NCBI RefSeq assembly: GCF_010726085.1
Contig: NZ_AP022560.1
Location: 2,356,001 to 2,420,000, forward strand
Origin: Mycolicibacterium moriokaense
Lineage (GTDB): Bacteria > Actinomycetota > Actinomycetes > Mycobacteriales > Mycobacteriaceae
Direction of reading: 5' to 3'
DNA: 64,000 bases
Shown here: one piece after another, positions 16,772 to 25,655 of the stretch
Layout: the number at the start of each line of letters is the position of its first letter
Position numbering within the stretch: position 1 is the first letter of the stretch
Translations under genes and position numbers: made by a program
Notes under the pieces: generated by a model
What the model saw: only the letters and a program-made list of their open reading frames with translations
Told to the model about the DNA's origin: nothing
The model's database searches: none

Positions 16772-17932
16772 TCAGTCGCCCCGCTCGTGGGGCACGACCG
16801 TCGGCATCTCAACCCCCTCCGGGAGAACCAGCTGACCGTCGGTGTTGATGTAGCCGGAGTGTCTGGTGGGAATCGGCAGCGACGGATCCGGGCACGGCCG
16901 GTCGGTGCCGTCGCCGCAGATCCCCGACGTGAAGTACGAGCGCTTCTGCACATCCTCGGGCCACGGGTCGGCATGCGTAGCCATGAACTGCGCGGGAATG
17001 ATGTAGAAGACGAAGAACGACGCGCTGATCGCGGCGAAGATCGCCAGGAAGCGGACGAACTGCTGTTTGGCGAAACCGCCTCGGACGTTGTCCAATCCGC
17101 GTTCGACGACGGTGCGGCCGCGGTCATCGGTGAAGAACCGTAGGCAGCACAGCGCGGCCTGCACGCCGCCCCACATCAGGCCCTCGTAGATCGGCCACTG
17201 GTAGTAGGTGCCGGCGTTGATCGACAGTGACTGTATGGCGCCGGGGAAGGTGTACATCCCCAACGGCATCAACACGAGGCCCTCCATTACGAAGTCGAAG
17301 ACGAACCCGAACGCGAACGCCACTCCGATCAGGCCTTTGGTGCCGAGCCGTGGCCACCGCTGTTGCGCCTTGCGCATCACCCAGCAGCCGAAGATCGTGC
17401 ATAGCAGCACGCCGTAGGCGTAGCCAGAGACGTTGATTCCCAAGGGTTCAGCCACCTGCGCGCCCGGCCGCTCCGGGGAGAGCCAACCCGGGACGTGCGG
17501 TGCCCACGAGCCCATGTTGAACGCCCAGGCGTTGTAGGTGCACCAGGTGTTGATGTAGTTCAGCAGCGGGTCCTGGAAGAAGAACAATCCCGTGGACACC
17601 ATGATCATGCCGTCCAACGTGATCCGTCGTTCCCGTCGCCACGGCCGGATGATGAACCACCAGATGGCGACGGGGAACAGCACCGGTGAGCCGATCTGCC
17701 AGAGCATCAGCGCGACCTTCATGAAGGTCGGCGGATCGGTCGGCCCGGGGTCGACGCGCGTGAAGTAGGGGCCGGTGATCCAGCGGATCCACACGTAGCC
17801 CTGCAGGGCCAGGATGAGGCCGCCCGCGGTCGCCCAGTAGTAGACGCGCCGCGAGGGTGTCGCCGGCGTATCCAGGCCGGCGGTGTCCAGTGATTCGGTG
17901 GTCGCGGGTTTCCTGTTCGACAGATCGCTCAC
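16772..17932 (-). CDS. AveC-like multi-pass membrane protein
   Basis: A 386-residue integral membrane protein with about seven hydrophobic segments (for example YWATAGGLILALQGYVW, GSPVLFPVAIWWFII, YGVLLCTIFGCW, FLAIFAAISASFFVFYIIP) and a hydrophilic, Cys-containing C-terminus. It resembles proteins annotated as spirocyclase AveC family, named after the avermectin enzyme that forms a spiroketal. Conserved acidic/aromatic patches (FDFVMEGLVLMP, WPIYEGLMWGG) sit in membrane segments and may form the active site. The GTG at 17932 follows GAGAGGGG. First gene of an operon with NorQ- and NorD-like genes and divergent from a TetR gene. The enzymatic role here is unknown. Confidence 0.78.
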   Translation of the reverse strand: MSDLSNRKPATTESLDTAGLDTPATPSRRVYYWATAGGLILALQGYVWIRWITGPYFTRVDPGPTDPPTFMKVALMLWQIGSPVLFPVAIWWFIIRPWRRERRITLDGMIMVSTGLFFFQDPLLNYINTWCTYNAWAFNMGSWAPHVPGWLSPERPGAQVAEPLGINVSGYAYGVLLCTIFGCWVMRKAQQRWPRLGTKGLIGVAFAFGFVFDFVMEGLVLMPLGMYTFPGAIQSLSINAGTYYQWPIYEGLMWGGVQAALCCLRFFTDDRGRTVVERGLDNVRGGFAKQQFVRFLAIFAAISASFFVFYIIPAQFMATHADPWPEDVQKRSYFTSGICGDGTDRPCPDPSLPIPTRHSGYINTDGQLVLPEGVEMPTVVPHERGD

Positions 17933-17959
17933 GACGACGCCCCTCTCATCGTCGGCCAA

Positions 17960-17983
17960 GATACCACCGAGTATCTCAGTATC
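17960..17983. promoter_or_regulatory. GATAC/GTATC repeats in divergent promoter, possible TetR site
   Basis: GATAC (17960-17964) and GTATC (17971-17975) form an inverted repeat; AGTATC occurs twice, 8 bases apart (17970-17975 and 17978-17983). The cluster lies between the AveC-like gene (start 17932) and the TetR gene (start 18020), as expected for a TetR operator. Confidence 0.45.
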
Positions 17984-18019
17984 CAATGGGGATCTTAGAT
18001 TCTGTGGCAGACTCGGGCC

Positions 18020-18622
18020 ATGGTGGAGGAATGGACCAGGGAGCGACGCCTGGAACGCACCCGTTCGCTCCTCCTCGACGCCGCCGAGGAAGTGTTCGCC
18101 GAAAAGGGTTTCACCCCAGCCAGTCTCGACGACATCGCGCGTGCCGCCGGCTATACCAAGGGTGCGATCTACAAACACTTCTCGACCAAAGAAGACCTCT
18201 TCCTGGCCGTCAGCGACCGCTACTGGCGTCGCTACTTCGACAATTTCGCCGAGGTCATGGCGTCGGCCAAGCAGATCGGCGCCCGCGAGTTCGACGAGAT
18301 CGCCAAGCGGTGGCGCAAGCTCAGCCGCGACCGCGGCGCCGAACACGCCGCGCTCGGACACGAGTTCACGCTGTATCTGCTGCGCAACCCCGACGCGCGG
18401 GAACGGGTGGCCGCCAAGAGGTCTGAGGTCGTGGAGGCGCTGACCAAGTTCATCGTCAACGGAATAGACCGGATGGGGGGCGCCCTGCTGATCCCCCCGC
18501 GTACCTTCGCTCAGGTGCTCATCGCCACCAGCGACGCCGTTGTCCTCGGCAGCGAACTCGATGACGTCGACCTCTACCGGCCCATCATCGAGATGTACGC
18601 GTCCGCGATCAAACTGCCCTGA
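18020..18622 (+). CDS. TetR-family transcriptional regulator
   Basis: A 200-residue TetR protein: DAAEEVFAEKGFTPASLDDIA, AGYTKGAIYKHFSTKEDLFLAV is a textbook HTH. ATG at 18020. It is divergent from the AveC-like/NorQ/NorD operon and lies 119 bases upstream of the first Rieske gene on the same strand, so it could control either or both. The intergenic stretch 17933-18019 carries GTATC-type repeats; the one before the Rieske gene carries GTCACG/CGTGAC (18636-18651). Confidence 0.9.
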   Translation: MVEEWTRERRLERTRSLLLDAAEEVFAEKGFTPASLDDIARAAGYTKGAIYKHFSTKEDLFLAVSDRYWRRYFDNFAEVMASAKQIGAREFDEIAKRWRKLSRDRGAEHAALGHEFTLYLLRNPDARERVAAKRSEVVEALTKFIVNGIDRMGGALLIPPRTFAQVLIATSDAVVLGSELDDVDLYRPIIEMYASAIKLP

Positions 18623-18635
18623 CCAGGGCATTTCT

Positions 18636-18651
18636 GTCACGACGCCGTGAC
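18636..18651. promoter_or_regulatory. Small inverted repeat ahead of Rieske operon
   Basis: GTCACG (18636-18641) and CGTGAC (18646-18651) with a 4-base loop lie in the 119-base gap between the TetR stop and the first Rieske gene. It could be an operator or a weak terminator; a shorter CCCTG/CAGGG-like hairpin directly precedes it at the TetR 3' end. Confidence 0.35.
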
Positions 18652-18741
18652 GCAACGGATGAATATCAACTACTTGCGATTGATTCGTCGAGCAGATAGC
18701 GTCAGCTCTACAGCCCCCACAGATGTCGACAGGAACATGCG

Positions 18742-20007
18742 ATGGCTCGATTCCCGAAACCACCCGAAGGCAGCTGGACGGAGCACTATCCGGAACTCGG
18801 CACGGACCCCGTCTCCTATGAGGACTCGATCAGCCCCGAGTACTACGAGACCGAACGCAAGGCCGTGTTCAAACGCGCCTGGCTCAATGTCGGTCGCGTC
18901 GAACAACTTCCGCGCAAAGGCAGCTACTTCACCAAGGAACTGAAGGTCGTCAACACCTCGATCATCGTGGTGCGAACCACCTCCGGAGAGGTCAAGGCGT
19001 ACCACAACATCTGCCGTCACCGCGGCAACAAGCTGGTGTGGAACGACATGCCGCTGGAAGAGACCAGCGGGGTGTGCAGGCAGTTCACCTGCAAGTACCA
19101 CGCCTGGCGCTACGACCTCGACGGAAATCTGACGTTCGTGCAGCAGGAGGGGGAGTTCTTCGACCTCGACAAGAGTCGCTACGGGCTGGTGCCTGTGCAC
19201 TGCGAGGTCTGGGAGGGGTTCATCTTCGTGAACTTCGCACCCGAACCCGAGCAGAGGCTGCGCGATTTCCTCGGTCCGATGATCACCGGTCTCGAGGGCT
19301 ATCCGTTCGGCGAGATGACCTCGCGCTTCTATTACCGCTCAGAGGTGAAGGCGAACTGGAAGCTCTACATGGATGCGTTCCAGGAGTTCTATCACGCACC
19401 CATCCTGCACGCGAACCAGTCGCCGTCGACGTATTCGAAAGCGGCCGCGGAGGCAGGCTTCGAGGCGCCGCACTACCGCATCGACGGCCCGCACCGGTTG
19501 GTGAGCACGTCGGGTGTCCGGGCGTGGGAGATGGATCCCGAGATGCGCAAGCCAATGGAGGACATCTGCCAGAGCGGACTGTTCGGGCCGTGGGACAAGC
19601 CGGATCTCGGACCGATGCCCGAAGGCCTCAATCCCGCGAAATGCGAACCGTGGGGCCTGGATTCGTTCCAGCTCTTCCCGAACTTCGTGATCCTGGTCTG
19701 GGGCCAGGGGTGGTATCTGACCTATCACTATTGGCCGACGTCGTACAACACGCACATTTTCGAGGGCACGTTGTACTTCCCGCAGCCGCGAACCCCGCGC
19801 GAGCGCATCGCCCAGGAGTTGGCGGCCGTCTCCTTCAAGGAGTACGGACTGCAGGATGCCAACACGTTGGAGGCCACCCAGACGATGATCGAGGGCAGAG
19901 CCGTCAACGAGTTCCTGCTGTGTGACCAGGAAGTGCTCATCCGCCATCTGCACAAAGAGACCGCCGCCTGGGTGGACGAGTACCAACGCAAGACGGCGGG
20001 GGTGTGA
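18742..20007 (+). CDS. Rieske non-haem iron oxygenase, alpha subunit (copy 1)
   Basis: A 421-residue ring-hydroxylating-type oxygenase. The Rieske [2Fe-2S] centre is C91-R-H93 and C117-KY-H120. The catalytic iron site is E215-FY-H218-APIL-H223, with D395 (CDQE) the likely third ligand. In naphthalene-dioxygenase-type enzymes the residue three before the first His is a bridging Asp; here it is Glu, as reported for the carnitine monooxygenase CntA. ATG 18742 follows an AGGA. About two thirds identical by eye to the second copy at 23181. Followed after three bases by a ~110-residue partner gene, with a 2Fe-2S ferredoxin gene further down the operon. Substrate unknown. Confidence 0.92.
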   Translation: MARFPKPPEGSWTEHYPELGTDPVSYEDSISPEYYETERKAVFKRAWLNVGRVEQLPRKGSYFTKELKVVNTSIIVVRTTSGEVKAYHNICRHRGNKLVWNDMPLEETSGVCRQFTCKYHAWRYDLDGNLTFVQQEGEFFDLDKSRYGLVPVHCEVWEGFIFVNFAPEPEQRLRDFLGPMITGLEGYPFGEMTSRFYYRSEVKANWKLYMDAFQEFYHAPILHANQSPSTYSKAAAEAGFEAPHYRIDGPHRLVSTSGVRAWEMDPEMRKPMEDICQSGLFGPWDKPDLGPMPEGLNPAKCEPWGLDSFQLFPNFVILVWGQGWYLTYHYWPTSYNTHIFEGTLYFPQPRTPRERIAQELAAVSFKEYGLQDANTLEATQTMIEGRAVNEFLLCDQEVLIRHLHKETAAWVDEYQRKTAGV

Positions 20008-20010
20008 CCG

Positions 20011-20340
20011 ATGACTGCGAAGCTGCCGCCCGAATTCGCTGACCTGGAACGGTTCTCGGAGTGGTGCCTGGCGACCGAACCCGAACGCTACGCGAAGCGG
20101 TTGGCCAGTTCGATGGCCGAGATGCAGGCGTTCTACGACGCCATCACCCCGCGTGCGGAGGAGGCGATCGCGTTCTGCGACAAGTTCTCCCTCGACGACA
20201 TGCCCGAGGACGTCCTGAACCTGATGCACCTGCTGTATTCGATGATCATGGTGTCCTTCCCGGTCGAGTGCTGGAAGCAGCCACGCGTGCCCGACTCCGG
20301 CGCCGCGTCGTTGGACTGCCTGTCTGAACCGGTGCCGTGA
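20011..20340 (+). CDS. Small helical protein paired with Rieske oxygenase (copy 1)
   Basis: A 109-residue protein of unknown family, mostly helical. It is clearly homologous to the protein at 24455: both contain WCLATE-ER, EEAI..CDKF, LDD-PEDVLNL-HL and YSMIMVS, and end in PVP. Each copy follows a Rieske oxygenase gene by a few bases. It is too short for, and unlike, the SnoaL-fold beta subunit of classical dioxygenases, so it may be a new accessory or small subunit. No signal peptide or metal motif is seen. The stop overlaps the next GTG start. Confidence 0.85.
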   Translation: MTAKLPPEFADLERFSEWCLATEPERYAKRLASSMAEMQAFYDAITPRAEEAIAFCDKFSLDDMPEDVLNLMHLLYSMIMVSFPVECWKQPRVPDSGAASLDCLSEPVP

Positions 20341-21599
20341 CCGGGCCGACCGTCCTGCGCGCCCAGCGCTGGGCCGACATCGACGCGGGCGAGGTGCGCG
20401 CTCCTGCCGCGATCGTGGTGGACGGCAATCGGATCGCGGAGGTCAATCCCGCTGAGCTGCCTGCGGATGCCACCGTCGTCGACCTCGGTGACGTGACCTT
20501 GCTGCCGGGGTTGATGGACATGGAACTCAACCTGCTGATCGGCGGTCCTGGCGGTCCCGAAGGGCTACCGAACCCGATGCACGGCGTGCAGGACGACCCC
20601 GTCTATCGCACCCTGCGTGGCGCGGTCAACGCACGCACCACGCTGGAGGCCGGCTTCACCACCGTCCGCAACCTCGGTCTCATGGTGAAGACGGGCGGCT
20701 ATCTGCTCGACGTCGCACTGCAACGCGCCATCGACCAGGGTTGGCACGTCGGCCCCCGCATCTATCCGGCGGGACATGCCATCACCCCGTACGGGGGGCA
20801 CCTCGACCCTACGGTGTTCCAGCGGCTGGCACCGGGCATCATGCCGTTGTCCGTCGCCGAGGGCATCGCCAACGGTGTGGACGACGTGCGCGCGTGCGTG
20901 CGCTACCAGGTCCGGCACGGCGCGAAGTTGATCAAGGTGTCGGCGTCAGGTGGCGTGATGTCGCACAGCACGGCACCGGGCGCGCAGCAGTACTCCGACG
21001 ACGAGTTCGCCGCGATCGCCGACGAGGCACACCGCGCCGGTGTACGCGTGGCCGCGCATGCGGTGGGGGACAGCGCTATTCGGGCCTGCATTCGTGCAGG
21101 GATCGACTGCATCGAGCACGGTTTCCTCGCCACCGACGACACGATCAAGCTGATGGCCGACACCGGCACGTTCCTGGTGTCGACCACCTATCTGACCGAG
21201 GCGATGGCCGTCGACCGCATCGCCCCTGAGCTCCGCAAGAAGGCGGAGGTGGTGTTCCCGCAAGCACAGGCGATGCTGCCCAAGGCGATCGCCGCCGGAG
21301 TGCGGATCGCCTGCGGAACCGACGCGCCGGCGATCCCGCACGGGCAGAACGCGAAAGAGCTGTGTGCACTCGTCGACCGCGGTATGACACCGATGCAGGC
21401 GCTCCGCGCGGCCACGGTCACCAGCGCCGAACTGATCGAGACCGACGACGAATTGGGCCGTCTCGCACCGGGTTACCTCGCCGACATCATCGCGGTGCCG
21501 GGCGACCCGTCGCAGGACATCACGACCACGCTCGACGTGCGCTTCGTGATGAAGGACGGCCGCGTCTACAAGCAGGACGGTATTAGCGATGGCGCGTGA
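20337..21599 (+). CDS. Amidohydrolase-superfamily protein lacking the HxH motif
   Basis: A 420-residue imidazolonepropionase/prolidase-like amidohydrolase with flanking beta-sandwich strands (start and C-terminus RLAPGYLADIIAV). Most metal-site residues are present: K200 (KLIKVSASGG), H241 (AAHAVGD), H261 (IEHGF), D329 (CGTDAP). However, the usual DxHxH after LPGL(I/M) reads D61-M-E63-L-N65, so both metal-binding His are replaced. The enzyme may hold one metal, use Glu/Asn as ligands, or be non-hydrolytic. GTG 20337 overlaps the preceding stop. It belongs to the Rieske operon; a ring-opening or lactone/amide hydrolysis step would fit but is inferred. Confidence 0.88.
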   Translation: MTGPTVLRAQRWADIDAGEVRAPAAIVVDGNRIAEVNPAELPADATVVDLGDVTLLPGLMDMELNLLIGGPGGPEGLPNPMHGVQDDPVYRTLRGAVNARTTLEAGFTTVRNLGLMVKTGGYLLDVALQRAIDQGWHVGPRIYPAGHAITPYGGHLDPTVFQRLAPGIMPLSVAEGIANGVDDVRACVRYQVRHGAKLIKVSASGGVMSHSTAPGAQQYSDDEFAAIADEAHRAGVRVAAHAVGDSAIRACIRAGIDCIEHGFLATDDTIKLMADTGTFLVSTTYLTEAMAVDRIAPELRKKAEVVFPQAQAMLPKAIAAGVRIACGTDAPAIPHGQNAKELCALVDRGMTPMQALRAATVTSAELIETDDELGRLAPGYLADIIAVPGDPSQDITTTLDVRFVMKDGRVYKQDGISDGA

Positions 21600-22059
21600 A
21601 ACGAGCATGGAGCTCGTCGACAACCTGCTGTGGCACCTCAAGCAGGCCTGGTACTTCTCGCTGACGGCGGTGAACGACGCGGTCAGCCAGCACGGCGTCA
21701 GCACCGCGCAGATCGGCATCCTGCGTCAGCTCGCCAACGAACCGGGGCTATCGGGTGCAGAGCTCGCCCGCCGGCTGTTGATCACACCGCAGGGAGTGCA
21801 GCTCGCGCTGAAGTCGCTGGAACAGCGGGGCCTGGTCGAGCGCAAGCCGGATCCGCAGCACGCGCGAATCCTGCAGGCGCAGCTGACCGCCGAGGGTCGG
21901 GAGGTGGCGAACGCGGTCGTCGGTGACGCGATCGCAGCCCACGACGCCGTCTTCGGCGTGCTGTCTCCCCAAGAGCAGGAGACACTGCGCGACCTGCTGG
22001 CGCGGGTAGTGGAGAAGGGGACCGGCCACACACTCTTCAACGACCACATCGGGGACTGA
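21589..22059 (+). CDS. MarR-family transcriptional regulator
   Basis: A 156-residue winged-helix MarR protein: VSTAQIGILRQLANEPGLSGAELARRLLITPQ, then SLEQRGLVERKPDPQHARILQAQLTAEG (wing) and C-terminal dimer helices. It overlaps the end of the amidohydrolase gene by 11 bases; ATG 21607 is an alternative. It is embedded within the Rieske operon rather than divergent from it, so it probably senses a pathway compound and acts on the operon promoter or elsewhere. Confidence 0.88.
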   Translation: MARETSMELVDNLLWHLKQAWYFSLTAVNDAVSQHGVSTAQIGILRQLANEPGLSGAELARRLLITPQGVQLALKSLEQRGLVERKPDPQHARILQAQLTAEGREVANAVVGDAIAAHDAVFGVLSPQEQETLRDLLARVVEKGTGHTLFNDHIGD

Positions 22060-22065
22060 CGCGAG

Positions 22066-22374
22066 ATGTCACCAGACGACGTGACCTGTGTCGCCGAGGC
22101 GACCGAGGAAGTGACGATCGAGCTCGACGGTCGGACCACCACGCTGAAGTACCGCGAGGGTGAGACCCTGCTCCAGAGTGCGCGCGCAGCGGCACTGCAG
22201 CCGCCGTACTCGTGCGAAATCGGTTCCTGCGGATCGTGTATGGCCCGGATCGTCGAGGGCAGCGCGCGCATGGTGAACAACGACGCACTAGAAGACGACG
22301 AGGTCGCGGAGGGCTGGGTGCTGACCTGCCAGTCGTTGCCGACGAGCAGAGCCGTGCGGGTGGTGTACGAGTAG
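22066..22374 (+). CDS. Plant-type [2Fe-2S] ferredoxin
   Basis: A 102-residue ferredoxin with the C-x4-C-x2-C-x29-C cluster pattern: C50, C55, C58 and C88 (SCEIGSCGSC ... VLTC). Preceding PPYS and following MARI are typical. It probably delivers electrons to one or both Rieske oxygenases of this operon. No dedicated flavin reductase gene is in the operon, so the reductase must be supplied elsewhere, or the SDR's cofactor pool is used indirectly. Confidence 0.92.
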   Translation: MSPDDVTCVAEATEEVTIELDGRTTTLKYREGETLLQSARAAALQPPYSCEIGSCGSCMARIVEGSARMVNNDALEDDEVAEGWVLTCQSLPTSRAVRVVYE

Positions 22375-22391
22375 TGACGGAGGGTCGTGCG

Positions 22392-23135
22392 ATGAACCGA
22401 GTTGCGGTGGTGACCGGTGGTGCGTCGGGTATGGGGGAGGCGATCTGCCACGAGCTCGGCGCCCGTGGGCACAAGATCGCAGTTCTGGACGTCAACGGCG
22501 AGGCGGCGCAACGGGTCTCGGAGCAGCTGCGAGAGAAGGGCGTGGAGGCGCTGAGTGCGGCGGTCGACGTCAGCGATCGCGCGGCGGTCGAGGCGGCCTT
22601 CGCGAGGGTGCGCGCGGAACTGGGCCCGGTGCACATCCTGGTCACCAGCGCAGGTGTGGTCGACTTCTGCGCCTTCACCGACATCACACCCGAGAAGTGG
22701 ACACGACTGGTCGACGTCAACCTGACAGGAACATTTCACTGCGCGCAGGTGGCGGTGCCGGACATGGTCGAGGCCGGCTGGGGCCGCATCGTGATGATCT
22801 CGTCCTCGAGCGCACAGCGCGGTTCGCCGCGAATGGCGCACTACGCCGCGTCCAAGGGCGCGCTGCTGTCGTTGACCAAATCGCTTGCCCGCGAATACGG
22901 ACCAGCGGGTATCACGGTGAACAACATTCCGCCGTCGGCCATCGAGACGCCGATGCAGCACGCGGGTCAGGCCGCGGGGCATCTTCCGTCCAACGAACAG
23001 ATGGCGCAGAGCGTCCCGCTGGGGCACCTCGGCACCGCCGAAGACGTCGCTGTCGCGGTGGGGTTCCTCTGCACGGAGCAGGCCGGCTTCATCACGGGTC
23101 AGATCCTGGGTGTCAACGGCGGATCGGTGATGTGA
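22392..23135 (+). CDS. SDR-family oxidoreductase in Rieske operon
   Basis: A 247-residue FabG-like SDR: VVTGGASGMGEA, LVTSAGVVDF, ISSSSAQRGS, YAASK, C-terminal GQILGVNGG. Start ATG 22392 is chosen because GGAGGG (22379-22384) lies seven bases upstream; a GTG at 22374 would overlap the ferredoxin stop. It closely resembles the SDR at 53745 (shared SSS motif, YGPAGITVN, GQILGVNGG). In Rieske pathways an SDR often oxidises the cis-diol or alcohol product; that is the likely role. Confidence 0.9.
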   Translation: MNRVAVVTGGASGMGEAICHELGARGHKIAVLDVNGEAAQRVSEQLREKGVEALSAAVDVSDRAAVEAAFARVRAELGPVHILVTSAGVVDFCAFTDITPEKWTRLVDVNLTGTFHCAQVAVPDMVEAGWGRIVMISSSSAQRGSPRMAHYAASKGALLSLTKSLAREYGPAGITVNNIPPSAIETPMQHAGQAAGHLPSNEQMAQSVPLGHLGTAEDVAVAVGFLCTEQAGFITGQILGVNGGSVM

Positions 23136-23180
23136 CCGTGCCATCACGTCCGAATCTTGGAGTACCAGAGGGAGGTTCAC

Positions 23181-24452
23181 ATGGGTAAGTGGCCCAAACC
23201 GGCCGAGGGCAGCTGGACCGAGCACTACCCGGGACTCGGCACCGGAGGAGTGTCGTTCCGCGATTCGACCTCGCCCGAGTTCTACGAACTCGAGCGCGAA
23301 GCGGTCTTCAAACGGGCCTGGCTGAACGTCGGCCGAGTGGAGGAACTGCCACGTGTCGGCAGCTACTTCACCAAGGAGATCGAGGCCGCACGGACATCGG
23401 TGATCGTGGTGAAGGGCAAGGACGACACGATCCGCGCCTTCTACAACATCTGCCGCCACCGCGGAAACAAGCTGGTGTGGAACGACTTTCCCAATGAGGA
23501 GGTCAAGGGCACCTGTCGCCAGTTCACCTGCAAGTACCACGGATGGCGCTACGGGCTCGACGGCGCGCTGACCTTCGTGCAGCAGCCCGGCGAGTTCTTC
23601 GACCTCGACACCGAGCAGTTCGGACTCGGTCCGGTGCACTGCGACGTCTGGAACGGGTTCATCTTCGTCAACTTCGATCCACAGCCGCGGTGGAGCCTGC
23701 GGGAGTTCCTCGGACCGATGATCACGGCGCTGGACGACTACCCGTTCGGCCAGATGACCGAGCGGTACGACTTCATCGCGCACAACAACAGCAACTGGAA
23801 GATCTTCGCCGACGCCTTCCAGGAGTACTACCACGTGCCATCGCTGCATTCCCAACAGGTTCCGTCGGCCGTGCGCCAGCCCAATGCCACGTTCGAGTGC
23901 GGACATTTCCAGATCGACGGGCCGCACCGGCTGGTCTCGACCGCGGGTACCCGGCGGTGGCTGCTCGATCCGGAGTTCATGTATCCCGTCGAACGGGCCA
24001 CCCGCAGCGGACTGGTCGGCCCCTGGCGGACGCCGGAGACGCATTTCTCCGCCGGCCTGAACCCCGGTGGCATCGAACCGTGGGGCATCACCAACTTCCA
24101 GATCTTCCCCAACCTGGAGATCCTCATCTACCACGGCTGGTACCTGCTGTACCGCTACTGGCCGACGTCGCACAACACCCACAGGTTCGAGGCGTACAAC
24201 GCATTTCATCCCGCGCGCACAGTGCGTGAACGCATCGAACACGAAGTCGCGTCGGTGGTATTGAAGGAGTTCGCGCTGCAGGACGCCGGCATGCTCGGTG
24301 GTACCCAGGCCGCCCTCGAGTACGGCCTGGACGAGCCGATCGTCGACGACTTCCCGCTCAACGACCAGGAGATCCTGGTTCGTCATCTGCACAAGGTGGT
24401 CGTCGACTGGGTCGAGGAATACCAGAACGAGCGCCGTCCGGTGGGGGTGTGA
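23181..24452 (+). CDS. Rieske non-haem iron oxygenase, alpha subunit (copy 2)
   Basis: A 423-residue oxygenase, paralogue of the one at 18742. Motifs occupy the same positions: C91/H93 and C117/H120 for the Rieske centre; E215, H218, H223 and D395 for the mononuclear iron. The bridging residue is again Glu. Strong Shine-Dalgarno GAGGGAGG before ATG 23181. Differences are concentrated after residue 225, the region that normally shapes the substrate pocket, so the two copies may act on different substrates or successive positions. Followed by its own copy of the small partner gene. Confidence 0.92.
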   Translation: MGKWPKPAEGSWTEHYPGLGTGGVSFRDSTSPEFYELEREAVFKRAWLNVGRVEELPRVGSYFTKEIEAARTSVIVVKGKDDTIRAFYNICRHRGNKLVWNDFPNEEVKGTCRQFTCKYHGWRYGLDGALTFVQQPGEFFDLDTEQFGLGPVHCDVWNGFIFVNFDPQPRWSLREFLGPMITALDDYPFGQMTERYDFIAHNNSNWKIFADAFQEYYHVPSLHSQQVPSAVRQPNATFECGHFQIDGPHRLVSTAGTRRWLLDPEFMYPVERATRSGLVGPWRTPETHFSAGLNPGGIEPWGITNFQIFPNLEILIYHGWYLLYRYWPTSHNTHRFEAYNAFHPARTVRERIEHEVASVVLKEFALQDAGMLGGTQAALEYGLDEPIVDDFPLNDQEILVRHLHKVVVDWVEEYQNERRPVGV

Positions 24453-24454
24453 CC

Positions 24455-24790
24455 ATGGCCGACGCCCGACTGCCGAGTGCGTTCGCCGAATTCGAGACCT
24501 ACGCCGAGAAGTGGTGTCTGGCAACAGAAGCCGAACGGTGGAACACGCGATTGGCCACCCCGATGCCCGAGATCCGCGAGTTCTACGATGCTTTCACGCC
24601 ACGGTTTGAGGAGGCGATCGACTATTGCGACAAGTTTCCTCTCGATGACCTGCCCGAGGACGTCCTGAACCTGCTGCATCTCATCTATTCGATGATCATG
24701 GTTTCGATGGCCGTCGAGGTCTTCGGCACTCAGAAACCGACCGACTCTGCGGACGCGGAACTGCACCGCGTCAGCGCGCCGGTGCCGTGA
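24455..24790 (+). CDS. Small helical protein paired with Rieske oxygenase (copy 2)
   Basis: A 111-residue protein homologous to the one at 20011 (shared KWCLATE-ER, FYDAFTPR-EEAI, CDKFPLDDLPEDVLNLLHL, YSMIMVS and terminal PVP). ATG 24455 mirrors the spacing seen in copy 1; a GTG at 24449 overlapping the Rieske stop is also in frame. Repetition of the Rieske/small-protein pair within one operon argues for a physical or functional partnership. Family unknown to me. Confidence 0.82.
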   Translation: MADARLPSAFAEFETYAEKWCLATEAERWNTRLATPMPEIREFYDAFTPRFEEAIDYCDKFPLDDLPEDVLNLLHLIYSMIMVSMAVEVFGTQKPTDSADAELHRVSAPVP

Positions 24791-24809
24791 CAGACAGGAC
24801 GACTCGAAA

Positions 24810-25655
24810 ATGACTGTGCTGACCATCAACAAGCTCACGTCCTCGGTCGGTGCCGAGGTAATCGGACTGGATTCCGACCGCCTGGTGGCCGACGACGCGA
24901 TGGGCGCTGCGGTGCTCGAAGCGCTCGAAGACAACGGCGTGCTGGTGTTTCCGCAATTGCATCTCGATCCGCAGGCTCAGGTGGAGTTCTGCCGCCGACT
25001 CGGCGAGGTCGACCACTCCTCGGATGGGCATCATCCCGTCGCGGGCATCTATCCGGTCACGCTCGACAAGTCCAAGAACGCGTCGGCGGCGTATCTGCGC
25101 GCGACGTTCGACTGGCATATCGACGGGTGCACGCCGACCAACGACGAGTACCCGCAGAAGGCCACGCTGCTGTCGGCCCGGCAGGTGGCCGAGCGTGGAG
25201 GGGAGACCGAGTTCGCGAGCAGCTACGGCGCCTACGACACGCTCACCGAGGACGAGAAGGAGCGCCTGTCGTCACTGCGCGTCGTGCACTCGCTGGAGGC
25301 GTCGCAGCGTCGCATCACGCCCGATCCGTCACCCGAGCTGCTGGCGCGGTGGCGAGCCAGGCCCACGCACGAGCATCCACTCGTCTGGACGCACCGCAAC
25401 GGCCGCCGCTCGCTGGTGCTCGGGGCCTCCGCCGATTACGTGGTCGGGATGGATCTCGAGGATGGCAGGGCGCTGCTCGCCGAGCTGCTCGACCGCGCCA
25501 CGACGGCCGAGAAGGTCTATCGCCACAGTTGGTCGGTCGGGGACACCGTCATCTGGGACAACCGCGGGGTCCTGCATCGGGCCGCTCCGTATGACCCGGA
25601 TTCACCTCGGGAAATGCTACGAACCACCGTCCTGGGCGACGAGCCCATCCAGTAG
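24810..25655 (+). CDS. TauD/TfdA-type 2-oxoglutarate-dependent dioxygenase
   Basis: A 281-residue Fe(II)/2-oxoglutarate dioxygenase. Iron triad: H103-x-D105 (DWHIDG) and H256 (NRGVLHRA); Arg271 (REMLRTT) is placed to bind 2-oxoglutarate. The LSARQVAERGGETEFASSY segment is characteristic of the TauD family. Length is normal. Last gene of the Rieske operon, 19 bases after the small partner. Likely a hydroxylation or oxidative cleavage in the same pathway; the substrate cannot be assigned. Confidence 0.92.
   Translation: MTVLTINKLTSSVGAEVIGLDSDRLVADDAMGAAVLEALEDNGVLVFPQLHLDPQAQVEFCRRLGEVDHSSDGHHPVAGIYPVTLDKSKNASAAYLRATFDWHIDGCTPTNDEYPQKATLLSARQVAERGGETEFASSYGAYDTLTEDEKERLSSLRVVHSLEASQRRITPDPSPELLARWRARPTHEHPLVWTHRNGRRSLVLGASADYVVGMDLEDGRALLAELLDRATTAEKVYRHSWSVGDTVIWDNRGVLHRAAPYDPDSPREMLRTTVLGDEPIQ

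Follow-up and report, generated by a model that had tools for sequence, protein, structure and literature searches.

In Rieske oxygenases of the α3β3 type, such as naphthalene and biphenyl dioxygenase, the α subunits are accompanied by β subunits, which are non-catalytic and are usually encoded directly behind the α subunit. Small proteins of a different sort, the effectors MmoB and TmoD, bind to di-iron hydroxylases and are encoded beside them. The quaternary structures tabled in a 2025 review of Rieske oxygenases are limited to α3, α3β3, α3α'3 and α3α3; the caffeine demethylase NdmA/NdmB is an α3α'3 enzyme with two different α-type Rieske subunits, and the table lists no small helical subunit for it (PMC12445004). 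The carnitine monooxygenase CntA is described as a plain α3 trimer with a bridging glutamate, E205 (PMC7948474), and electron transfer in characterized Rieske oxygenases runs between chains, from a Rieske cluster to the iron of the neighbouring chain (PMC12445004; PMC7948474). The locus described here lies in a 64,000-nucleotide stretch of DNA from Mycolicibacterium moriokaense (the window; G000:C1:2356001-2420000 of a 6.2 Mb genome in one contig), where two Rieske α subunits, RieA and RieB, are each followed by a small protein, SmA and SmB (together Sm). Sm is probably a third kind of terminal-oxygenase subunit, a four-helix protein that would bind the catalytic part of the α subunit and be needed for its folding, assembly or activity.

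The original prediction for this locus had seen two Rieske α subunits, each with a homologous small protein, and the open reading frames (ORFs) are found at the places it gave. RieA and SmA are separated by 3 bp and RieB and SmB by 2 bp, although a GTG at 24449 offers SmB an alternative start that would give a protein of 113 aa overlapping the end of RieB. The two α subunits are 59% identical over 427 columns and the two small proteins 59% over 108, and the sequence blocks WCLATE-ER, CDKF, PEDVLNL and YSMIMVS that had been picked out in the small proteins are present. RieA and RieB both score above the cut-offs of PF00355 and PF00848, and hence have a Rieske domain and a Ring_hydroxyl_A catalytic domain. 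By alignment, the [2Fe-2S] ligands of RieA are assigned to C91, H93, C117 and H120, the bridging glutamate to E215 and the iron ligands to H218, H223 and D372.

The linkage between Sm and this clade of α subunits was followed through genome samples in which each species has one genome, with a pair being counted when a same-strand clade Rieske (profile threshold E<=1e-60) lies directly upstream of Sm at an accepted gap of -60 to 600 bp. Across the 251 genomes of the family sample the Sm profile finds 126 places in 53 genomes and the clade Rieske profile 124 places in 52, and in 123 of the 126 Sm stands directly downstream of its Rieske (gaps of -5 to 376 bp, median 23). Only one of the 124 clade Rieske places lacks its own Sm, and this is a partial gene in G518, a fragmented assembly (75% complete, 950 contigs). 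The same seven of 296 genomes in the phylum sample carry both genes, at 19 places each, and the only one of these cases outside the family (L090) has the order Rieske-Sm-amidohydrolase. Within the order sample Sm is found in 32 of 249 genomes, a Rieske lies upstream in 19 of 20 Sm-centred loci (L270-L289, some at places already in the family set), the exception being that of G745, and G597 has a divergent adjacent pair of 35-36% identity. The genome from which the window comes encodes 15 PF00848 proteins, four of which belong to the clade (668 to 795 bits, the next best scoring 166 bits), and it has four Sm, each behind one of the four. Two of these modules lie outside the window, at G000:C1:2344475-2346140 and 4768133-4769715, one being followed by an amidohydrolase and one by a TauD-type dioxygenase.

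The two proteins also occur naturally as a single chain. Among 120 matches listed with a cluster-less relative as query, P0331 (544 aa) and P0332 (617 aa, with an altered tail) consist of a clade Rieske followed by Sm, the Sm part being 60% and 57% identical to SmA, respectively; as the two are near identical to each other they are counted as one fusion event. The AlphaFold model of P0331, for which the alignment included 60 Sm rows with none misplaced, has a predicted local distance difference test (pLDDT) score of 85.6 and a predicted template modelling score of 0.75. Moreover, the distances among α subunits and among Sm correlate at 0.877 over 118 pairs, compared with a mean of 0.147 and a maximum of 0.310 over 200 draws when the partners of copies within a genome are swapped, which shows that the paralogue copies do not exchange partners. 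The suggestion of a real partnership, perhaps involving a new small subunit, is thus strongly supported by the 123 of 126 linkage, the four copies of each gene in one genome and the fusion. Mapping of the neighbourhood in actinobacteria places the Rieske upstream, so that Sm is not mostly found without Rieske neighbours, and the profile-database search of Sm returned no family, hence no clear match to an unrelated one.

Sm is described in no database that was searched, the Rieske oxygenases themselves being a known kind. A search with SmA at E<=1 gave no family in Pfam or NCBIfam, and 13 diverse Sm gave only scattered, chance-level matches to Pfam; at E<=1 these 13 do not match the Rieske β subunit family PF00866, nor does Sm match the di-iron monooxygenase effector family (MmoB/DmpM) in Pfam. 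Because SmA has 4911 homologues in the protein database at E<=1e-3, Sm is not a chance ORF. A second member used as query gave 597 homologues, the named sources among the 120 matches listed being actinobacteria. By source name Sm is found in mycobacteria and also in Streptomyces, Actinomadura and Amycolatopsis. Two metagenome-assembled genomes (MAGs) fall outside the actinobacteria, a Sericytochromatia MAG with an Sm 87% identical to SmA and a Myxococcota MAG with an α homologue, and wrong binning is the likely cause of both entries. Where the database names Sm at all, it is a 'hypothetical protein' or an 'Xaa-Pro dipeptidase', the latter name having probably been transferred from the amidohydrolase gene beside it.

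The AlphaFold model of SmA, made with 105 aligned sequences, has a mean pLDDT of 90.2 and predicts four helices (residues 7-18, 23-32, 35-56 and 66-88), no strand and a less certain C-terminal tail; no solved structure clearly matches Sm. Nine residues are invariant in the 105 sequences, P6, E13, W18, R26, R30, M35, F41, L71 and E86, with no cysteine or histidine among them. Sm thus resembles the Rieske β subunits in being encoded directly behind the α subunit, but differs from them in having no PF00866 match and in being predicted to be all-helical. The β subunits have an α+β fold and are longer than Sm, and the four strandless helices of the model would not give the fold expected of such a subunit. 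Unlike MmoB and TmoD, Sm lacks a family match, and its predicted fold also differs from theirs.

The part of the α subunit to which Sm is tied is indicated by those partners that have no normal Rieske cluster. The CxH...CxxH cluster ligands and a 2-His-1-carboxylate iron site are present in RieA, RieB, RieC and RieD, and the cluster is normal in 108 of the 123 pairs, with three further odd rows being gene pieces in G518. The segment that carries C91, H93, C117 and H120 is deleted in six pairs (L143-L148, in genomes G492, G433, G319, G472, G406 and G336), and the ligands are replaced in six more (L176, L183, L187, L194, L201 and L237), giving CRCC twice, CQCC twice, CHCC once and CHCR once. Five of these six have CxxC in place of CxxH, and the two motifs of the G474 α subunit read CPRC...CKRC, resembling a zinc ribbon. 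Since all 12 altered α subunits keep N205, D211, E215, H218, H223 and D372 together with Sm, it is unlikely that Sm is there for the Rieske cluster; what stays constant is Sm together with the catalytic domain. The 120 homologues listed all keep the catalytic residues and, as aligned, the bridging glutamate (E215) that is also found in RieA-D. Nineteen of them are cluster-less (P0241-P0247, P0257, P0258, P0266, P0269-P0271, P0273, P0274, P0281, P0285, P0294 and P0342), in part the same genes as L143-L148 (the protein of L148, for example), and source names place cluster-less α subunits in Aldersonia and Rhodococcus.

A tree of 118 of the 123 pairs, built with the cluster columns removed and leaving out the four pairs of G518 and one duplicate, requires four changes of the cluster trait by parsimony: one falls in clade A (G406), two fall in clade B, and one precedes the deletion clade, whose sister under midpoint rooting is clade C. 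The node separating the two clade B events has a support of 18, so the four changes may be three. For 11 of the 12 altered genes the tree also contains an intact clade member from the same genome; the genome of the twelfth (G492) has an Sm-amidohydrolase pair at a contig end, so that the corresponding Rieske is out of view.

These patterns bear on how RieA and RieB might work together. Clade A is found in 26 genomes, all of which also have clade B, with B alone in one further genome (G472); in 25 cases A and B share a contig, at a distance of 2.5 to 10.3 kb. An amidohydrolase follows all 26 A modules and a TauD-type gene 26 of the 27 B modules. No genome has both A and B cluster-altered, which carries little statistical weight given six altered among 26 pairs, for which a hand estimate puts the chance expectation at about 0.2 double cases. 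It is conceivable, although we would not put it higher than that, that two α paralogues form mixed complexes in which one loses or changes its cluster, the partner's cluster feeds its iron, and Sm holds the mixed assembly together. As electrons pass between chains, a cluster-less chain could be supplied by its partner, and NdmA/NdmB provide a precedent for a complex of two different α subunits. The co-occurrence of A and B and the absence of double alteration fit such complexes but prove nothing.

For the window, the favoured view of Sm as a third kind of subunit would mean a paired system of RieA with SmA and RieB with SmB. Each Sm, of about 110 residues in four predicted helices, would bind the mononuclear-iron part of its cognate α subunit, probably near the α C-terminus, and the oxygenase would depend on it to fold, assemble or be active. 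RieA and RieB may then sit in one complex, with electrons crossing between the two chains, from Rieske cluster to iron.

The best-supported view is that Sm is a stoichiometric helical subunit, and its main rival is a chaperone of the catalytic domain. Metalloenzymes often have dedicated maturation factors, and a dedicated chaperone or iron-loading factor that leaves after maturation would be expected to be linked with one α clade, to be kept after loss of the cluster and to belong to no known family, as Sm is. Such a factor is nonetheless rather unlikely, as the natural fusion and the provision of one Sm per α paralogue favour a stoichiometric partner, and the invariant residues of Sm include no cysteine or histidine, although E13 and E86 could bind metal weakly. 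The maturation factor that the original prediction offered as an alternative survives in part only: maturation of the Rieske cluster is disfavoured by the cluster-less partners that keep Sm, whereas a role in maturing the mononuclear iron site or in loading it is compatible with the data. An Sm that serves the cluster, whether in its assembly or in electron transfer to it from ferredoxin, would account for the ferredoxin gene in the operon and for the normal cluster of 108 of 123 partners, but with Sm retained in the 12 others and no invariant cofactor ligand in it, this is very improbable.

Size and operon position recall MmoB and TmoD, and, as Sm goes with the catalytic domain and not with the cluster, they would suit an effector or gating protein that binds reversibly and controls the access of substrate or electrons. 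This is improbable too, given the lack of such a Pfam match, the all-helical prediction and a fusion that favours permanent association. Hardly credible at all is an unrelated activity of Sm in the pathway, with the operon as the only link: the enzymes encoded downstream do vary (70 amidohydrolase and 40 TauD of 123) and Sm can be unlinked from its Rieske, as in G745, but the constant neighbour is the α subunit and no other enzyme, one Sm is provided for each α paralogue, and the two are fused in one lineage of sequences.

Several observations weigh against Sm being a bound subunit. In G745 an intact Sm and the single clade Rieske of that genome are 8.7 kb apart on one contig, on opposite strands. 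Two Sm without a paired Rieske stand at contig ends (G433:C32, with a Rieske remnant visible, and G492:C8); short Sm fragments occur in G443:C5 (L153), in a genome without a clade Rieske, and in G746 (L301), with no Rieske beside it, both of which are likely to be decayed copies. All of these stayed in the counts, G433:C32, G492:C8 and G443:C5 being the three exceptions among the 126 Sm places of the family sample. No fusion occurs among the 123 genome pairs, the fusion being known from two near-identical sequences only, and its model is no evidence of docking because it comes without interface scores and the Sm tail is poorly ordered. Co-diversification of adjacent genes is to be expected from linkage alone. 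The physical binding of Sm to the α subunit, its stoichiometry, its site and its function are all matters that we infer.

The genes of the block lie on the + strand in the order of Table 1, between 18020 and 27053. The amidohydrolase, MarR-type regulator, 2Fe-2S ferredoxin, short-chain dehydrogenase/reductase (SDR) and TauD enzyme named beforehand are each confirmed by Pfam, and the ferredoxin at 22066 is likely to be the electron donor to the Rieske subunits.

Table 1. Genes of the RieA-RieB block, in positions of the window
Gene product	Position	Strand	Basis and remarks
TetR-like regulator	18020..18622	+	Upstream neighbour; ORF; label from sequence reading, no family scan
RieA, Rieske oxygenase α subunit	18742..20007	+	PF00355 + PF00848; clade A
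SmA, small four-helix partner protein, 109 aa	20011..20340	+	No Pfam/NCBIfam family; helices predicted by AlphaFold
AmH, amidohydrolase without the usual HxH metal motif (MDMELN instead)	20337..21599	+	PF01979
MarR-type regulator	21589..22059	+	PF12802
2Fe-2S plant-type ferredoxin	22066..22374	+	PF00111
SDR dehydrogenase	22392..23135	+	PF13561
RieB, second Rieske oxygenase α subunit	23181..24452	+	PF00355 + PF00848; clade B
SmB, second small partner, 111 aa	24455..24790	+	Homologue of SmA; sub-threshold Pfam match only
TauD-type α-ketoglutarate dioxygenase	24810..25655	+	PF02668
Cytochrome P450	25767..27053	+	Downstream neighbour; PF00067

Conservation of the block was traced in 80 loci matched by SmA, all from Mycobacteriaceae, which are close relatives because the best 80 of 555 confirmed matches were taken. 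RieA lies directly before Sm and the amidohydrolase directly behind it in all 80. Further downstream MarR is found in 77, ferredoxin in 72, SDR in 74, RieB in 73, SmB in 60 and TauD in 58; part of the loci end early, and L007, L012 and L049 have none of the later genes though the locus continues. TetR-like homologues of 75-90% identity stand upstream in 34 of the 80, and P450 homologues (91-94% identical) come after TauD in L005, L006, L016 and L050, most other loci stopping earlier. The idea that the block is a self-contained oxidation pathway is borne out in so far as it is conserved in many mycobacteria; against it, no flavin reductase is present among the ten block genes scanned with Pfam, and elsewhere Rie-Sm modules have only an amidohydrolase or TauD behind them. 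Around the block lie P450s, an AveC-like protein, and thiolase/ChsH2-type and NAD-binding proteins, which suggests lipid or terpenoid breakdown. The AveC-like spirocyclase family protein (PF17198) is encoded just upstream, at 16772-18763 on the - strand.

Of the matches that begin no more than 400 bp behind Sm, the best is an amidohydrolase in 70 of the 123 pairs, TauD in 40, a P450 in six and an SDR in one, with none of these in six. All 70 amidohydrolases lack HxH, which a solved homologue has in its usual form, and carry MDME[VLI]N instead; the Lys, His, His and Asp further along the sequence are conserved in every one of the 70.

As to the substrate, the closest known enzymes are CntA and the glycine betaine monooxygenase GbcA, both Rieske oxygenases built of α subunits only. 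In the PDB the Rieske portion of the modelled P0331 fusion matches CntA best (Foldseek E 1.4e-22, template modelling score 0.81 by target length), and E215 of RieA-D is taken as the counterpart of CntA E205 by motif rather than by structure alignment. Identity to CntA is about 19%. In NCBIfam both RieA and RieB match GbcA best, at 124.4 and 114 bits, respectively, far below its cut-off of 670, which places them well outside that equivalog. Despite the likeness to CntA and the bridging glutamate, a quaternary amine is therefore no more than a weak candidate for the substrate.

The open-licence PubMed Central literature, searched mostly by title and start of abstract, yielded nothing on Sm, the block or cluster-less Rieske oxygenases, an absence that proves little. 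If true, a helical third subunit would be a new architecture for the Rieske oxygenases, and expression of such enzymes without Sm might fail. The cluster-less relatives that retain their iron-site residues would offer a natural test of electron transfer between subunits, or may point to a non-heme iron enzyme able to act independently of the cluster.

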